Shown: positions 28,816 through 37,771 of the stretch, one piece after another | Layout: every line of letters begins with the position of its first letter | How positions within the stretch are numbered: position 1 is the stretch's first letter | Source: Anaerosomatales bacterium | GTDB taxonomy: Bacteria > Actinomycetota > Coriobacteriia > Anaerosomatales > Anaerosomataceae | DNA: 64,000 bases | Reading direction: 5' to 3' | NCBI GenBank assembly: GCA_030019445.1 | Contig: JASEEU010000003.1 | Coordinates: 1-64,000, forward strand | The notes under the pieces: model-generated | Seen by the model: the letters and a program-made list of their open reading frames with translations, nothing else | Told to the model about the DNA's origin: nothing | Database searches by the model: none | Made by a program: the position numbers and the translations under genes

Positions 28816-29029
28816 ATATCTCGTAATGGAGCGGGCGTCGGCCGTCGGGGGGCGGTCGCCGTCCGCTTCTTCACGTGCGCGCGTGGAACGCCTGGTGGGG
28901 AGGGGTGTTGTGACGCGCCTCATACAGCGATTCCCACCTTCTGCCGAATGAGCCCGACAGACCTCGGGACAGGGGCGCGGAGTGTCCGCACCGGGGACCG
29001 TCAGGCGAGCGGAACGGGAGGAGATGCCG
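28816..29029. other. Intergenic, promoter region of the surface protein
   Basis: No gene seen. An AT-containing stretch (AGATATCTCGTAATGG, from 28813) could hold a promoter element for the secreted protein. Confidence 0.3.
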
Positions 29030-30979
29030 ATGTCTGTCATGAGGTTGCGCGCCCGACCGCTGGGAGCGGTCTGCGCGCTCGCGCTGTTCTTCGCTTCTAT
29101 CGTCATCATGCCGGCGGCTTACGGATGCACGCCGCCGGACGAGCCCTTCAATATCGAGTTGCTCGGAGGCTCGGCGGCCGTGACCAACGGGGTCGATCTC
29201 GACGTGGAGGGTGCGTACCTCTACGTGGCGACACCCGACGGGCTCACGGTCTTCGATGTGACCGATCCCGCCGCTCCAACGGCGGTCGGCTCCGGGTACG
29301 CCACATCCTCCCCTGCGGTACGGCTCCTCGTGTCCGGCTCTCGCGCGTACGTGGCCACCGATGCTGGGCGTGTCGTCATCCTGGATGTCACCGACCCGCT
29401 GGCGCCGGCGCTTCTCGGCCAGTACGACTCCGGGAAGTACCCGCACGCGCTGGCCGCCTCGGCGAACCGGCTCTACGTCGGAGCCTCGGACGGCCTCCAT
29501 GTGGTCGATGTCAGCGATCCAACGGCACCGGTGCGCGTGGGGTACTTCGCCACACCGCAGCCGGTCACTGACGTGGTGCTCGACGGGTCGGTCGCATATG
29601 CGGCGTACTCCTACTACACCGTCGCCGTCGCGACCGGTGTGTACGAGACGTATCCGACGACCGTGATCGCGCTGAACGTGGCAAGTGATTGGCCGACGCT
29701 GCTCGCCAGTCATCAGATCCCGGCCGGTCGCGTGCGTCTGGCGTTGGGCGGCGGCTACCTGTACGTAGCGGTCGCCGGCTCGGGCGGCTACCTGAAGGTC
29801 TTCGACGTGGTCCCGTCGGGGTCGCTCGACTACCGCGTCTACATCGGCGTCGGCAGCTATGGAGCGCTTGACGTCGCCGCCGACGGTACCGATGTGTACC
29901 TTGCCGGCAAGGACGACACGCGCGCGTATGACCTGGCGTACACCGACGCGCCGTATCTCTCGGCGCTGCACCCCGACGGCGCCAAGGCCATCGACGCTGC
30001 GGACGACGTGGTCTTCACCCTCGACACGATGGGCACAGTACGCGTCTACCAGTACCTGCCGACCTCGGAGCGCTCGCTCGGAGCGGACCGCTACAAGACG
30101 GCGGTCGACCTCAGCAAGCAGTTCGCGGCGGCGGAGTACGTCGTGCTGGCCACCGGCGCCAACTACCCGGACGCCCTGGCAGGTGCGCCGCTCGCGTACC
30201 TCCTGGACTGCCCGATCCTGCTCGTCGATCGCGACGCGATCCCGTCTTCGGTGAAGGCGGAGATCAAGCGGCTCGGCGCTACCAAGGCGTACATCCTCGG
30301 CGGTACGGGAGTCGTCTCGGACCGCGTCGTCGCGGAGCTCAGGGGACTCGGCATGGCCGCAGGCAATATCAAGCGGCTTGCCGGAACCAACCGTTACGAC
30401 ACCTCGGCCAAGGTCGCCCTGGAGATGAAGGCGCGGAGCGGCTCCATCGCCAACGCGTTCATCGCCACCGGGGAGAACTTCCCGGATGCGCTCGCGGGTT
30501 CGGGCGCGGCGGCCAAGATGGGCGCGCCGATCCTTCTGGTGGAGCGCACCAGCGTCCCGGGGGCCACACGCCAGGCGCTGTCCGCCCTGGGCGTGAAGGA
30601 CACCTACGTGCTCGGCGGGACCGCGGTCGTCTCGGACGCCGTGATGCGCAGCCTGCCCTCGCCGCTCCGGCTGGCGGGCAGCGACCGGTTCGGTACCGCG
30701 AGAGCGGTGGCCGATTGGGCCATCGACCGCTCCGGCGCGGGCTTCGCGGAGACCACGGTGTTCGTGGTGACGGGGCGCAACTTCCCCGACGCCATGCCGT
30801 GCGGCGTCCGCGCCGCCATCGACAACGCCGCGACCGTGCTCGTCAACGAGGACGTCCCGGGCTCCACGCGTTCGTTCCTGATGACACGGGCGGCGGGCAT
30901 CGATAACGTGCGTGTCGTGGGCGGCACGTCGGCGGTGTCGAGCGAGGTCGAGCGCGTCGTCGTGAGTCTCGTCAAGTAG
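29030..30979 (+). CDS. Secreted beta-propeller protein with CWB2 cell-wall-binding repeats
   Basis: A 649-residue protein. A signal peptide (residues 1-31, ending PAAYGC) is followed by an LVIVD-type beta-propeller (residues about 45-340) with repeats of the form LYVA..GLTVFDVTDPAAPT, VVILDVTDPLAP and LHVVDVSDPTAP. Three tandem cell wall binding repeats 2 (PF04122) follow, each with R(F/Y)xT(A/S), NFPDAL-like and VLGGTAVVS-like segments, which attach it to wall polysaccharide. ATG 29030 is selected because GGGAGGAG lies six bases upstream; ATG 29024 is too close. Its ligand is unknown. Confidence 0.92.
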   Translation: MSVMRLRARPLGAVCALALFFASIVIMPAAYGCTPPDEPFNIELLGGSAAVTNGVDLDVEGAYLYVATPDGLTVFDVTDPAAPTAVGSGYATSSPAVRLLVSGSRAYVATDAGRVVILDVTDPLAPALLGQYDSGKYPHALAASANRLYVGASDGLHVVDVSDPTAPVRVGYFATPQPVTDVVLDGSVAYAAYSYYTVAVATGVYETYPTTVIALNVASDWPTLLASHQIPAGRVRLALGGGYLYVAVAGSGGYLKVFDVVPSGSLDYRVYIGVGSYGALDVAADGTDVYLAGKDDTRAYDLAYTDAPYLSALHPDGAKAIDAADDVVFTLDTMGTVRVYQYLPTSERSLGADRYKTAVDLSKQFAAAEYVVLATGANYPDALAGAPLAYLLDCPILLVDRDAIPSSVKAEIKRLGATKAYILGGTGVVSDRVVAELRGLGMAAGNIKRLAGTNRYDTSAKVALEMKARSGSIANAFIATGENFPDALAGSGAAAKMGAPILLVERTSVPGATRQALSALGVKDTYVLGGTAVVSDAVMRSLPSPLRLAGSDRFGTARAVADWAIDRSGAGFAETTVFVVTGRNFPDAMPCGVRAAIDNAATVLVNEDVPGSTRSFLMTRAAGIDNVRVVGGTSAVSSEVERVVVSLVK

Positions 30980-34269: not shown

Positions 34270-34602
34270 ATGAACGGACGGGTACGGATGGTCGCGATAC
34301 TGCTCGCCCTGCTCATGCTCGGCATGGCGCTGGGCGTGGCCGGCTGCGGCAGCGATGCCGAGGAGCCGATCGATGAAGAGACGACGGTGGACACGGGCGA
34401 GGGCGGCATCGGGGAGACGATGCTCACCGGTGAGGAGCTCGTGGAGGCGAAGTGCTCGACCTGCCATGACCTCGAGCGGGTGCTGGAGGCGGACTACGAC
34501 GATGTAGGCTGGATGGCCGTCATCGACCGGATGATCGTGAACGGCCTGGAGATCACCGACGAGGAGGCCGCCGCGGTGGCGCAGTACCTCGCCAACCGCT
34601 GA
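34270..34602 (+). CDS. Monohaem c-type cytochrome lipoprotein
   Basis: A 110-residue protein. The signal peptide has lipobox VAGC (about residue 24), followed by an acidic linker and a small cytochrome c domain with CSTCH (haem attachment) near residue 65. A downstream Met in RMIVNG could be the axial ligand; the tail EEAAAVAQYLANR is the usual last helix. It would be membrane-tethered outside the cell. Monocistronic with a terminator after it. Confidence 0.87.
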   Translation: MNGRVRMVAILLALLMLGMALGVAGCGSDAEEPIDEETTVDTGEGGIGETMLTGEELVEAKCSTCHDLERVLEADYDDVGWMAVIDRMIVNGLEITDEEAAAVAQYLANR

Positions 34603-34622
34603 CGGACCGTGATGTCAGCCGA

Positions 34623-34653
34623 CGCGCCGGCCGCATCCGCGGTCGGCGCGTTT
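34623..34653 (+). terminator. Intrinsic terminator after cytochrome gene
   Basis: CGCGCCGGCCGC (34623-34634) pairs with GCGGTCGGCGCG (34639-34650), with one G-U pair, loop ATCC, then TTTGCG. Confidence 0.75.
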
Positions 34654-34710
34654 GCGTGCTGACGCGGGTGGGCGCACAATACGAACGCCCGCCACAGAGA
34701 GGTCCCGCAG

Positions 34711-35610
34711 GTGCCTTCGAACGAGTCCGCACATCGCGTCGCGCCCGCGACGATCGAGATCCGCCAGATCGAGCTCCCGCTCACGACGCTCCGCGTCGGC
34801 ACGGCCGGTGACGGCCCTCCGGTCATCATGGTCCCGGCGACCATATCCCTCATCGAGGACTGGGAGCCGATGATCCGCTTCGTGGCCGAGCGCTACTCGG
34901 CGTACTTCTTCGAGCTCCCGGGTTACGGAGGGAGCACGCCGTTCAGGCAGCCCTTCAGCAGCAGGCTCGTCGCGCAGGCCGTCGGCCAGCTCGCCGACGC
35001 CATCGGAGCCGGACGCTTCGGCGTCCTCGGCTTCTCGTTCGGTGGTCTGCTCGCGCTGCGGACGCTGCAGGCCATGCCCGATCGTGTGGACCGGCTCGGC
35101 CTGCTCTCACCGTACGTCGGCAAGGAGGCGCTCCTGCACTCGGACGCCAAGATCGGCGCGCTGCGCACGATGCTCGGTGCGTTGCGGACCGAGGTCGCCC
35201 GTCGCGGGATGGTCGCTGCGCTCCACACGCCCGTGGGGCGCACCTTCGTCTCCTGGTTCATGCAGTCGGCGGGCAAGTTCGAGACCCCGACCGACATCCG
35301 GGGACGGCTCGCCGCGTTCAGCGTGCATTCGCTCGAGGTGCTCATCGCTCAGACGACCGAGGTGCTCACGACGAGCACGGCCGAGCTCGCCGGTCCGTAC
35401 GACGTGCCGTGCTTGTTCGGCATGTCCGAGTTCGACACGATGCTGGACTTCGGCACCACGCAGCGCTTCATCCACGGCAGCTTCCCTGACGCGGTCGAGG
35501 ACGTGTGGGACTTCCCGTACCACGCGCCGCCCGAGCCGTTCACCCTGGAGGACTACGAACGCGACTACCACGCGCTGTTGGCGTGGGAGCCTGCGACGCG
35601 AGCGGGGTAG
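34711..35610 (+). CDS. Alpha/beta hydrolase
   Basis: A 299-residue protein with VIMVPATISLIEDWEPM (oxyanion strand), FFELPGYGGS, nucleophile elbow GFSFGG and the late histidine-bearing region FPYHAPPEPF. GTG 34711 follows AGAGAGGTCCCGCAG. The fold is clear; substrate is not. It starts the segment leading to the solenoid protein, 32 bases downstream. Confidence 0.87.
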   Translation: MPSNESAHRVAPATIEIRQIELPLTTLRVGTAGDGPPVIMVPATISLIEDWEPMIRFVAERYSAYFFELPGYGGSTPFRQPFSSRLVAQAVGQLADAIGAGRFGVLGFSFGGLLALRTLQAMPDRVDRLGLLSPYVGKEALLHSDAKIGALRTMLGALRTEVARRGMVAALHTPVGRTFVSWFMQSAGKFETPTDIRGRLAAFSVHSLEVLIAQTTEVLTTSTAELAGPYDVPCLFGMSEFDTMLDFGTTQRFIHGSFPDAVEDVWDFPYHAPPEPFTLEDYERDYHALLAWEPATRAG

Positions 35611-35642
35611 GTACCAGAGGTAACCAAGCCGAGGAGGGACCG

Positions 35643-36185
35643 ATGACTGACGAGAAGCCGCTTGAGACGCTGCCGGAGACCATTGTGGAGGGCGAGGCGT
35701 ACGCGCGGCTCGAGGCCCACGATGTGCAGATGCGGTCGAGCGCGATCGGCTCGGCGGCCGTGAACGACCTCGAGACGGACATGAGCGCGCTGGGCGGCGT
35801 GAGCGCGGACGGGTCGGCCAGCATCGACATGTCCGCCGTCGGCGGTATCGCGGCCAAGGGCGACGTGACCGTGGAGCGAGGACTGATCGGCGGCGTGGCC
35901 GCGGGCGGGAACGTGTCGCTCGGGATCGGTCTCGCCGATGCCGTGCTCGCCGCCGGCGACGTGCACGCGGAGACGCTCGGCGCCGGGGCGGTGGCGGCGC
36001 GTTCGGTGACCATCAGCAAGGGGTGGGTCGGCGTCGTGGCCTCCCCGCAGGCGAACATCGCCGAGGACGTCAAGGTCGTGCTCGACCCCAAGGGCGCAGC
36101 ATGGCTCGGCATCGCGTTCGGCGTGGCGTTCGGGCTGGTGTACGCGGTGACCCGCGCCTTCACCGGCAGCTGCTGCGAAGAGTAG
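35643..36185 (+). CDS. 16-residue-repeat solenoid membrane protein
   Basis: A 180-residue protein. After about 30 residues it shows seven consecutive 16-residue repeats, with register SAxGGxxAxGxxxxxx. Examples: SALGGVSADGSASIDM, SAVGGIAAKGDVTVER, GLIGGVAAGGNVSLGI, GLADAVLAAGDVHAET. Then one C-terminal helix (WLGIAFGVAFGLVYAVTRAF) and CCEE. The period and the small-residue pattern suggest a short beta-helix, as in bactofilins, but I do not know a family with this exact repeat. ATG 35643 follows GAGGAGGG. Start spacing suggests co-transcription with the hydrolase upstream and the DUF72 gene 10 bases downstream. Confidence 0.85.
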   Translation: MTDEKPLETLPETIVEGEAYARLEAHDVQMRSSAIGSAAVNDLETDMSALGGVSADGSASIDMSAVGGIAAKGDVTVERGLIGGVAAGGNVSLGIGLADAVLAAGDVHAETLGAGAVAARSVTISKGWVGVVASPQANIAEDVKVVLDPKGAAWLGIAFGVAFGLVYAVTRAFTGSCCEE

Positions 36186-36194
36186 GCGCCGCAC

Positions 36195-37145
36195 GTGGGC
36201 GCGGTGCGGATCGGCACGTGCTCGTGGAGCGACAAGACGATGATCGAGGCGTACTACCCGGCCGAGGTCAAGACGGCCGAGCAGCGGCTTCGTTACTACG
36301 CTGCGCGTTTCGACACCGTCGAGGCCGATTCGCCCTTCTACGCGATCCCCGACGTGCGGGTGGCCGAGAACTGGGCCGCGCGCACGCCTGAGGACTTCAT
36401 CTTCCACGTGAAGGCGTTCGGCCTGATGACGCAGCATTCGGTTGACGAGCGACGCCTCCATCCGGCGCTGCGCGAACTGCCCTACGAGACCAACGAGCGC
36501 GGTCGGGTGACACGGCCCTCCGCCGAGATGATCGACACGGCGTTCGAGCTGTTCGGCGAGTTCGTCGCGCCGCTACGCCGCGCCCGTAAGCTCGGCGGCG
36601 TCCTCATGCAATTCCCGCCGTACTTCACCGCGCTCGATGACGAGCGTCGTCGCGAGAACCTGGGGTATCTTGAGCGAGCGCAGGAGCTTCTCGGCGACGT
36701 GCCGATGCTCGTAGAGTTCCGGCACCCGTCCTGGGTGGCCGAGGACCGCGTGGCCGAGACGCTCGGCTTCCTTGCCGACCGGCAGATGGCGTACGTGAGC
36801 GTCGACGCTCCGCAGTTCACGGACAAGCCGGTGATGCCACCCCTCGCCGCGGCGACGACGCCCTGGGCGTACGTCCGGTTGCACGGCAGGAACCGCGAGA
36901 TGTGGTTCGCGCGCACGAGCAGCGCCGCGGACCGGTTCGACTACCTCTACACCACTGAGGAGCTCGGCGAGGTCGCCTCGCGGGTACGCGAGCTTGCCGA
37001 TGAGACCGAGGTGACCTGGGTGATGTTCAACAACTGCAAGTACGACTACGCGCCGCGCAACGCGCGCGAGCTTGCCGGGATCCTCGGTGAGGGCGTCCCG
37101 ATGCCGGACGGGAGCGCCGGCGGGCAGCTCGGCCTCGGGCTCTAG
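36195..37145 (+). CDS. DUF72 family protein (YecE-like)
   Basis: A 316-residue TIM-barrel protein: IGTCSWSDKTMIEAYYP, RLRYYAARFDTVEADSPFYAIPD, FHVKAF, LVEFRHPSWV and YVRLHGRN, all hallmarks of DUF72. Function unproven. GTG 36195 is the only well placed start. Its stop overlaps the convergent TetR stop. Confidence 0.9.
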   Translation: MGAVRIGTCSWSDKTMIEAYYPAEVKTAEQRLRYYAARFDTVEADSPFYAIPDVRVAENWAARTPEDFIFHVKAFGLMTQHSVDERRLHPALRELPYETNERGRVTRPSAEMIDTAFELFGEFVAPLRRARKLGGVLMQFPPYFTALDDERRRENLGYLERAQELLGDVPMLVEFRHPSWVAEDRVAETLGFLADRQMAYVSVDAPQFTDKPVMPPLAAATTPWAYVRLHGRNREMWFARTSSAADRFDYLYTTEELGEVASRVRELADETEVTWVMFNNCKYDYAPRNARELAGILGEGVPMPDGSAGGQLGLGL

Positions 37146-37771
37146 AGGGGCGACGTCGCCGTCCAGTCGGCGAGCCAGCCGTCGGCGAGCGCATCGGCAA
37201 GGGCGTGCGCTCGCCGGTCGACCTCATCGGCGGCCACCATGTTCGGGTTCCCGTACATCCGACCGGAGATGGCGAGCGATGTCAGGCCGTGCATGGCGAC
37301 CCACATCACGTCGGTGGCCACGGCGCTGTCGAGCGAGCGGTCAAACACGCCCTGTTCGATGCCGAGCTCGACGATCTGCCGGTTGCGCCGCCACGACCGG
37401 CGTCGGGCGAAGATCGCGTCGGGGCTGATGTCGCCCAGGTAGCCCCACTCGAACATGAGGCGGTACATCCCCGGATTGGCGAGCCCCCATGCCAGGTACG
37501 CGTGCGCGCCCTGCCGGATGCGTTCGACGGCGCTCGTCCCGGTCTGCCGGGACTCGATCTCATCGGCGAACCACTCGTACGCGCGGTTCACCGTCTGGTC
37601 GAGCAGCTCGTCTTTGTTCGCGAAGTGCAGGTAGATGCTCGTCGGGCTGTAGCCGATGCGCCGTGCGACCTCACGCATGGTCACGCCCTCGGGACCGCGC
37701 TCTTCCACGATCGCAGCGGTGGCCGAGATGATCTCGCTTGCCAGGTGAGGGTTGGCGGGTCGTGCTGACAT
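37142..37771 (-). CDS. TetR family regulator (exporter control)
   Basis: A 209-residue protein: HTH VTMREVARRIGYSPTSIYLHFANKDELLDQT and a TetR_C_33-like ligand domain (YLAWGLANPGMYRLMFEWGYLG, WVAMHGLTSLAISGRMYG). It diverges from the ABC permease/ATPase operon; operators between them overlap the promoter. It is the likely repressor of that exporter. Confidence 0.93.
   Translation of the reverse strand: MSARPANPHLASEIISATAAIVEERGPEGVTMREVARRIGYSPTSIYLHFANKDELLDQTVNRAYEWFADEIESRQTGTSAVERIRQGAHAYLAWGLANPGMYRLMFEWGYLGDISPDAIFARRRSWRRNRQIVELGIEQGVFDRSLDSAVATDVMWVAMHGLTSLAISGRMYGNPNMVAADEVDRRAHALADALADGWLADWTATSPL

Follow-up and report, generated by a model that had tools for sequence, protein, structure and literature searches.

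Our analysis of the window, that is, the whole stretch of 64,000 nucleotides, showed that the ORF at 35643–36185 on the forward strand, which starts with ATG and encodes a protein of 180 amino acids, is a real, conserved gene. Its parts and its immediate neighbours are as follows.

34711–35610, + strand: alpha/beta hydrolase gene, stop 32 nt 5′ of the solenoid ORF (neighbourhood scan)
35632–35637, + strand: Shine-Dalgarno-like AGGAGG, 5 nt upstream of the ATG
35643–36185, + strand: ORF of 180 aa, tail-anchored solenoid protein (homologues found)
35643–35717, + strand: residues 1–25, acidic N-terminus with part of a first coil (predicted fold, alignment)
35718–35762, + strand: repeat 1, residues 26–40 (motif model)
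35763–35810, + strand: repeat 2, residues 41–56 (motif model)
35811–35858, + strand: repeat 3, residues 57–72 (motif model)
35859–35906, + strand: repeat 4, residues 73–88 (motif model)
35907–35954, + strand: repeat 5, residues 89–104 (motif model)
35955–35999, + strand: repeat 6, residues 105–119 (motif model)
36000–36047, + strand: repeat 7, residues 120–135, carrying the conserved family motif G-W/F-V-G (motif model, alignment)
36048–36086, + strand: last coil, residues 136–148, with the family motif S/A-E-D-x-R/K-V and a linker-free join to the helix (predicted fold, alignment)
36087–36173, + strand: predicted membrane helix, residues 149–177, with an uncharged core at 151–170 that holds GxxxGxxxG (predicted fold, hydropathy)
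36153–36182, + strand: C-terminal tail, residues 171–180, into which the predicted helix extends (alignment)
36195–37145, + strand: DUF72 gene, 9 nt 3′ of the solenoid ORF (neighbourhood scan)

A promoter scan of 34600–37300, which is uninformative here, gave no sigma-70-like site.

The window protein contains seven repeats. An iterative 16-residue motif model placed them at residues 26, 41, 57, 73, 89, 105, and 120, with spacings of 15, 16, 16, 16, 16, and 15, and the self-similarity of residues 19–148 was highest at lag 16 among lags 8–24, a value matched by 0 of 5000 shuffles. The original prediction of seven 16-residue repeats is thereby borne out, and its starting point near residue 30 was about right, the first repeat beginning at 26 with a predicted partial coil before it. 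The seventh repeat ends at 135, and a predicted last coil (136–147) precedes the helix at 149–177. At the DNA level the repetition is weak, with two short families. When the motif model was refined over 27 relatives, the consensus of the repeat was G-D-V-s-I/V-x-Q-(S/G)-G-A-G-x-V-x-A-x. A total of 163 repeats were found across these 27 members, five to seven being detected in each, and their spacing was 16 (77 times), 15 (54 times), or 17, 18, or 32 (5 times).

Relatives were found in 23 of the 69 genomes of the window's order, its own included, with the single protein as query. A class-wide search with an alignment matched 24 of 296 genomes, every one within the window's own order, and a phylum-wide alignment search matched 11 of 396, again including its own. 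Each matching genome had one copy in the order-wide and class-wide searches. A contig scan with the close-subset alignment A2 gave counterparts at seven loci, in uncultured Actinobacteria or Coriobacteriia assemblies, while the same kind of scan with the window protein as sole query gave no match. Similar proteins may occur in Chloroflexota. No match to the solenoid family was found on plasmids by tblastn or in a scan of viral contigs. Of the matches from the phylum-wide search, alignments A4 and A6 exclude L031 (cut by a contig end), L032 (partial), L033 and L036 (one split gene), L037 (the L034 gene again), and L035 (a repeat protein of different look); L005 and L021 belong to alignment A1, which has 23 members, and were left out of A4.

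No model of Pfam or NCBIfam claims the family over its cut-off, whether the query was the window protein, the 23 members of A1, or six distant members. Four members had no match in PHROGs or PADLOC, sequence searches of the PDB gave chance-level matches only, and no description of the family was found in the open-licence PubMed Central literature. The family is scattered in environmental Actinomycetota and is undescribed in the libraries searched. This agrees with the original prediction, in which no family of this exact design was known. It had set two outcomes against itself, namely a described repeat family matched with confidence and predicted disorder, and neither occurred.

The members share an architecture: a mostly acidic rod has G-W/F-V-G near its end and is followed by a coil with S/A-E-D-x-R/K-V, and after this last coil comes one uncharged segment of 19–30 residues, usually followed by arginines. 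Many members of the order have an extra basic tail of 20–75 residues, which is often proline-rich. In family f1, to which the window protein belongs, the tail is short and usually acidic at its end. The tail ends vary among members (GYDDEE, GYDEE, GFDEE, ISE, RRR, RR, or proline-rich), and the CCEE end, which had been counted as part of the design, is private to the window protein among the aligned members and is no element of it.

Hydropathy analysis showed a single C-terminal hydrophobic, uncharged segment of 19–30 residues in all 27 aligned members. GxxxG was present in 18 of the 27 helices, a count inflated by relatedness, against a mean of 9.9 in composition shuffles, of which 0 of 5000 reached 18; eight of the nine remaining helices carry F/L-G-x-F/L-G/A instead. 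By eye, the window protein lacks both a signal peptide and a hydrophobic stretch at its N-terminus. Its hydropathy maxima all lie at 151–155, which indicates that there is no N-terminal transmembrane helix. The features of the tail-anchored class, namely the lack of a signal sequence (by eye) and a single C-terminal helix (by hydropathy), were found in 27 of 27 members. The tail-anchored proteins of Streptomyces, also an actinomycetote, likewise combine a hydrophilic N-terminal domain with one C-terminal membrane helix and no signal sequence (PMC3087755). However, they constitute a topology class and not a family, and the part of that paper used here describes no repeat or beta-helix member.

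The original prediction also proposed a short beta-helix like that of bactofilins, and the structural models point the same way. AlphaFold modelled the window protein (23 sequences) with a pLDDT of 83.6, with strands predicted across residues 13–147 and a helix at 149–177, whose pLDDT was about 61–74. The distant member L028 (18 sequences) was modelled with a pLDDT of 91.0, with short strands in 16-residue coils and a helix at 128–153, the helix blocks being mostly at pLDDT 87–95. Both models are of monomers, and the two alignments share members while their first sequences differ. In the model of the window protein, the rod and the helix meet at residues 147–149 with no linker. A bactofilin-like beta-helix core of about 110 residues is thus predicted.

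Neither model had a Foldseek match in the PDB at E ≤ 0.001. With VIA-align, the window protein aligned with the Thermus bactofilin 6rib_A over 91 residues (Z 10.5, rmsd 1.8 Å), with the antifreeze protein 3p4g (Z 12.3, 2.5 Å), and with the tapirin 6n2b (Z 11.7, 2.9 Å). LpxD and GlmU outranked the bactofilin by Z (up to 13.6) at an rmsd of about 10 Å; we take both to be left-handed helices and read the large rmsd as a probable mismatch of handedness. For L028, 6rib_A ranked first (Z 12.4, 1.5 Å, 90 of 101 residues, 21% identity), and the bactofilins 2n3d (BacA; Z 10.1, 2.9 Å) and 6ria (Z 9.9, 2.1 Å) were also found. Since VIA-align Z values below about 13 are common for repeats, what counts is that almost all of the domain superposes at a low rmsd. 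Pectate lyases, the other comparison suggested originally, fit worse than the bactofilin (2.5–2.8 Å vs 1.5–1.8 Å). The structural neighbours include ice-binding, adhesin (tapirin, ChiW), and pectate-lyase structures, mostly with larger rmsd or low Foldseek probability, and no shared function with them is proposed. Foldseek also listed amyloid fibrils of curli and FapC, at a probability of 0.01. Hexapep matched one distant member weakly (E 0.07), and the repeat of the family is of 15–16 residues, against 18 for left-handed coils of hexapeptide repeats.

By the Pfam criterion the solenoid protein is not a bactofilin: hmmscan gave no match to PF04519 for the window protein at E ≤ 10, nor for the 23 members of A1 or six distant members at E ≤ 1. 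We then compared profiles with hhalign, using A7, an alignment of 11 canonical bactofilins of the phylum (from 20 fetched loci without near-duplicates) whose profile itself recovers 6ria and 2n3d, and A3, the Pfam-recognised divergent local bactofilins (6 of 12 fetched loci). The probability of the match to A7 was 37% for A1, 52% for A4, and 58% for A6. The scores were 29–32; reversed profiles scored 13–17, and none of the 40 column-shuffled profiles made for each exceeded 17.4. A3 scored 31.3 against A7, no better than the solenoid family did, and the solenoid family did not align with A3 (probability 2–4%). Single members reached at most 16.6 bits against the A7 model (reversed decoys, 6.9). 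FapA solenoids gave no such hhalign signal, either to the bactofilins or to the solenoid family. Common descent with bactofilins is likely but not proven.

Both kinds of protein would thus be small right-handed beta-helices associated with the membrane, with the bactofilin as the best low-rmsd structural match and with weak profile similarity above the controls. The bactofilin helix is right-handed, and canonical bactofilins have a short N-terminal membrane peptide, about 3.2% having N-terminal transmembrane helices, according to PMC12448750. In contrast, the solenoid protein has one C-terminal transmembrane helix joined straight to the last coil, with no flexible stretch between rod and membrane. 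The beta-solenoid of FapA (PF03961) also has repeats of the xAxGDV type. Its matches to 4 of the 23 members (best E 0.07) and to 2 of the six distant ones (best E 0.025) were weak and stayed under the cut-off (best 14.6 bits vs 31), and it was rejected as the parent family, with an hhalign probability of 0.6–0.8%.

Bactofilins as such also occur in the order and the phylum. PF04519 matches (E ≤ 0.001) were found in 22 of 69 genomes of the order and 72 of 296 of the phylum, although a 2012 review describes bactofilins as broadly conserved among bacteria and names Actinobacteria as a notable exception (PMC3296230). The matches in the order sit at other loci than the solenoid gene, and there are none in the window's own genome.

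In family f26, a second bactofilin-like gene was found beside the solenoid gene in five of the six matching genomes (G075, G129, G152, G174, and G216), the locus in the sixth (G227) being cut by a contig end. These neighbours (L054:6733–7719, L055:7095–8030, L057:8191–8592, L060:7388–8215, and L036:1875–2723) encode proteins with several membrane helices and, where the N-terminus is present, a signal peptide by eye. Three of them have matches to PF04519 that stay under the curated cut-off (E 7e-5 to 0.004). The two f26 proteins may possibly form a functional pair. No bactofilin-like gene was found near the window's copy of the solenoid gene.

We infer that the solenoid protein is a membrane-anchored scaffold, a divergent right-handed beta-helix of the bactofilin type that is anchored C-terminally, and give this reading a probability of about 0.6. 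By stacking, eight to nine coils of 15–16 residues would form a rigid rod about 4 nm in size, and the last coil would pass without a linker into one transmembrane helix, holding the rod at the membrane surface. The glycine-zipper helix and the flat sides of the rod may favour self-association into patches or short arrays, which could then present binding surfaces to other proteins. Because the C-terminal end of the rod lies directly on the helix, one end is probably occupied, and the protein probably could not form the filament of bactofilins, with its head-to-head plus tail-to-tail contacts; lateral association or pairing of N-terminal ends is likelier. If this is true, the family would represent a second solution to the membrane attachment of a bactofilin-type beta-helix, by means of its own transmembrane helix, and a small, tractable subject for the action of a beta-helix scaffold in which end-to-end filament growth is blocked. 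A more far-reaching version, which we consider speculative and rather improbable, is that a bactofilin-derived family gained the C-terminal helix and lost its filament-forming end, and that in some lineages it pairs with the exported bactofilin-like neighbour with multiple membrane helices as a cross-membrane scaffold and not a cytoplasmic filament.

On the side of the membrane that carries the rod, the evidence is divided. The absence of a signal peptide argues for a rod inside the cell, as a tail anchor in the strict sense would have it. Outside f1, however, most members carry strongly basic residues (RR...RP, RRR) behind the helix and a near-neutral or acidic flank in front of it; under the positive-inside rule, this places the C-terminus inside and the rod outside. 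The original claim of a tail anchor is supported as to the single C-terminal helix; as to its strict sense, the charged flanks of most members outside f1 favour the opposite orientation. The protein could then lie N-out and C-in, having entered the membrane with no signal peptide, and its rod would face the cell wall and serve as a surface spacer or a scaffold resembling an adhesin. The acidity of the rod in most members (9 K/R vs 21 D/E in that of the window protein) and the signal peptides seen by eye in the f26 neighbours are consistent with this, as is the Streptomyces tail protein SCO2900, which was inferred to be N-out from basic residues after its helix (PMC3087755). But the export of a 150-residue domain ahead of its sole helix would be unusual, no N-terminal hydrophobic stretch is seen by eye, and the f1 tails, that of the window protein included, also hold acidic residues, so that the flanks do not decide there. 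We regard an external rod as doubtful, though worth keeping in mind.

It could also be argued that this is a generic conserved repeat protein rich in Ala, Gly, and Val, and that its repeats misled the modelling into a beta-helix. AlphaFold is prone to turn repeats into solenoids, the composition is simple, and the alignments held only 18–23 sequences. However, two targets with different first sequences, albeit from alignments that share members, gave the same fold, one of them at pLDDT 91; the motif is kept in the 163 repeats of 27 members, mostly at a spacing of 15 or 16; and the bactofilin profile signal drops on reversal or column shuffling. An artefact is therefore very improbable. A stress-signalling membrane adaptor that binds partners beneath the membrane, and is not a scaffold, is unlikely as well. 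It would resemble the Toastrack domains (DUF4097/DUF2154/DUF2807) of PSP/Lia systems, which share the general design of a right-handed beta-helix attached to membrane helices and for which two broad protein-binding faces have been proposed (PMC11237479). But the sequence models differ, those of Toastrack in Pfam giving no match at E ≤ 10 for the window protein or, at E ≤ 1, for six distant members and the 23 of A1. The domain order is opposite, since Toastrack tends to lie C-terminal to its membrane helices while the beta-helix here is N-terminal, and no PspA, PspC, Lia, or two-component gene was found among the eight neighbours scanned. The scaffold reading remains the one we prefer, and the family, which has no model in Pfam or NCBIfam, now has a motif and an alignment.

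All 11 members of families f1 (nine) and f2 (two) have the DUF72 gene directly 3′ of the solenoid gene and on the same strand. The order's 12 remaining members showed no such gene at their loci, some of which span only about 1.5 kb per side. An alpha/beta hydrolase gene lies 5′ of the solenoid gene in six f1 members, the window's included, and about 7 kb away in a seventh. At four loci of families f3 and f12 (L046, L047, L050, and L053) the solenoid gene is a neighbour of gatB, and at two of these it has gatA on its other side, the gat genes being identified by eye. A function deduced from neighbours was rejected, since the DUF72 adjacency is strict in f1 and f2 only and the solenoid genes of other members lie by gatA/gatB or elsewhere.

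An ORF of about 6.6 kb (L038:1116–7760) was found between an alpha/beta hydrolase gene and the solenoid gene, and part of it resembles a large protein encoded in the window at 28982–30979, which has LVIVD repeats and three stretches of the cell-wall-binding CWB2 type. At L050:7536–8228 and L053:7217–7837, the solenoid gene lies between gatA and gatB on the opposite strand, which is an odd fixed place for the gene of a membrane protein.
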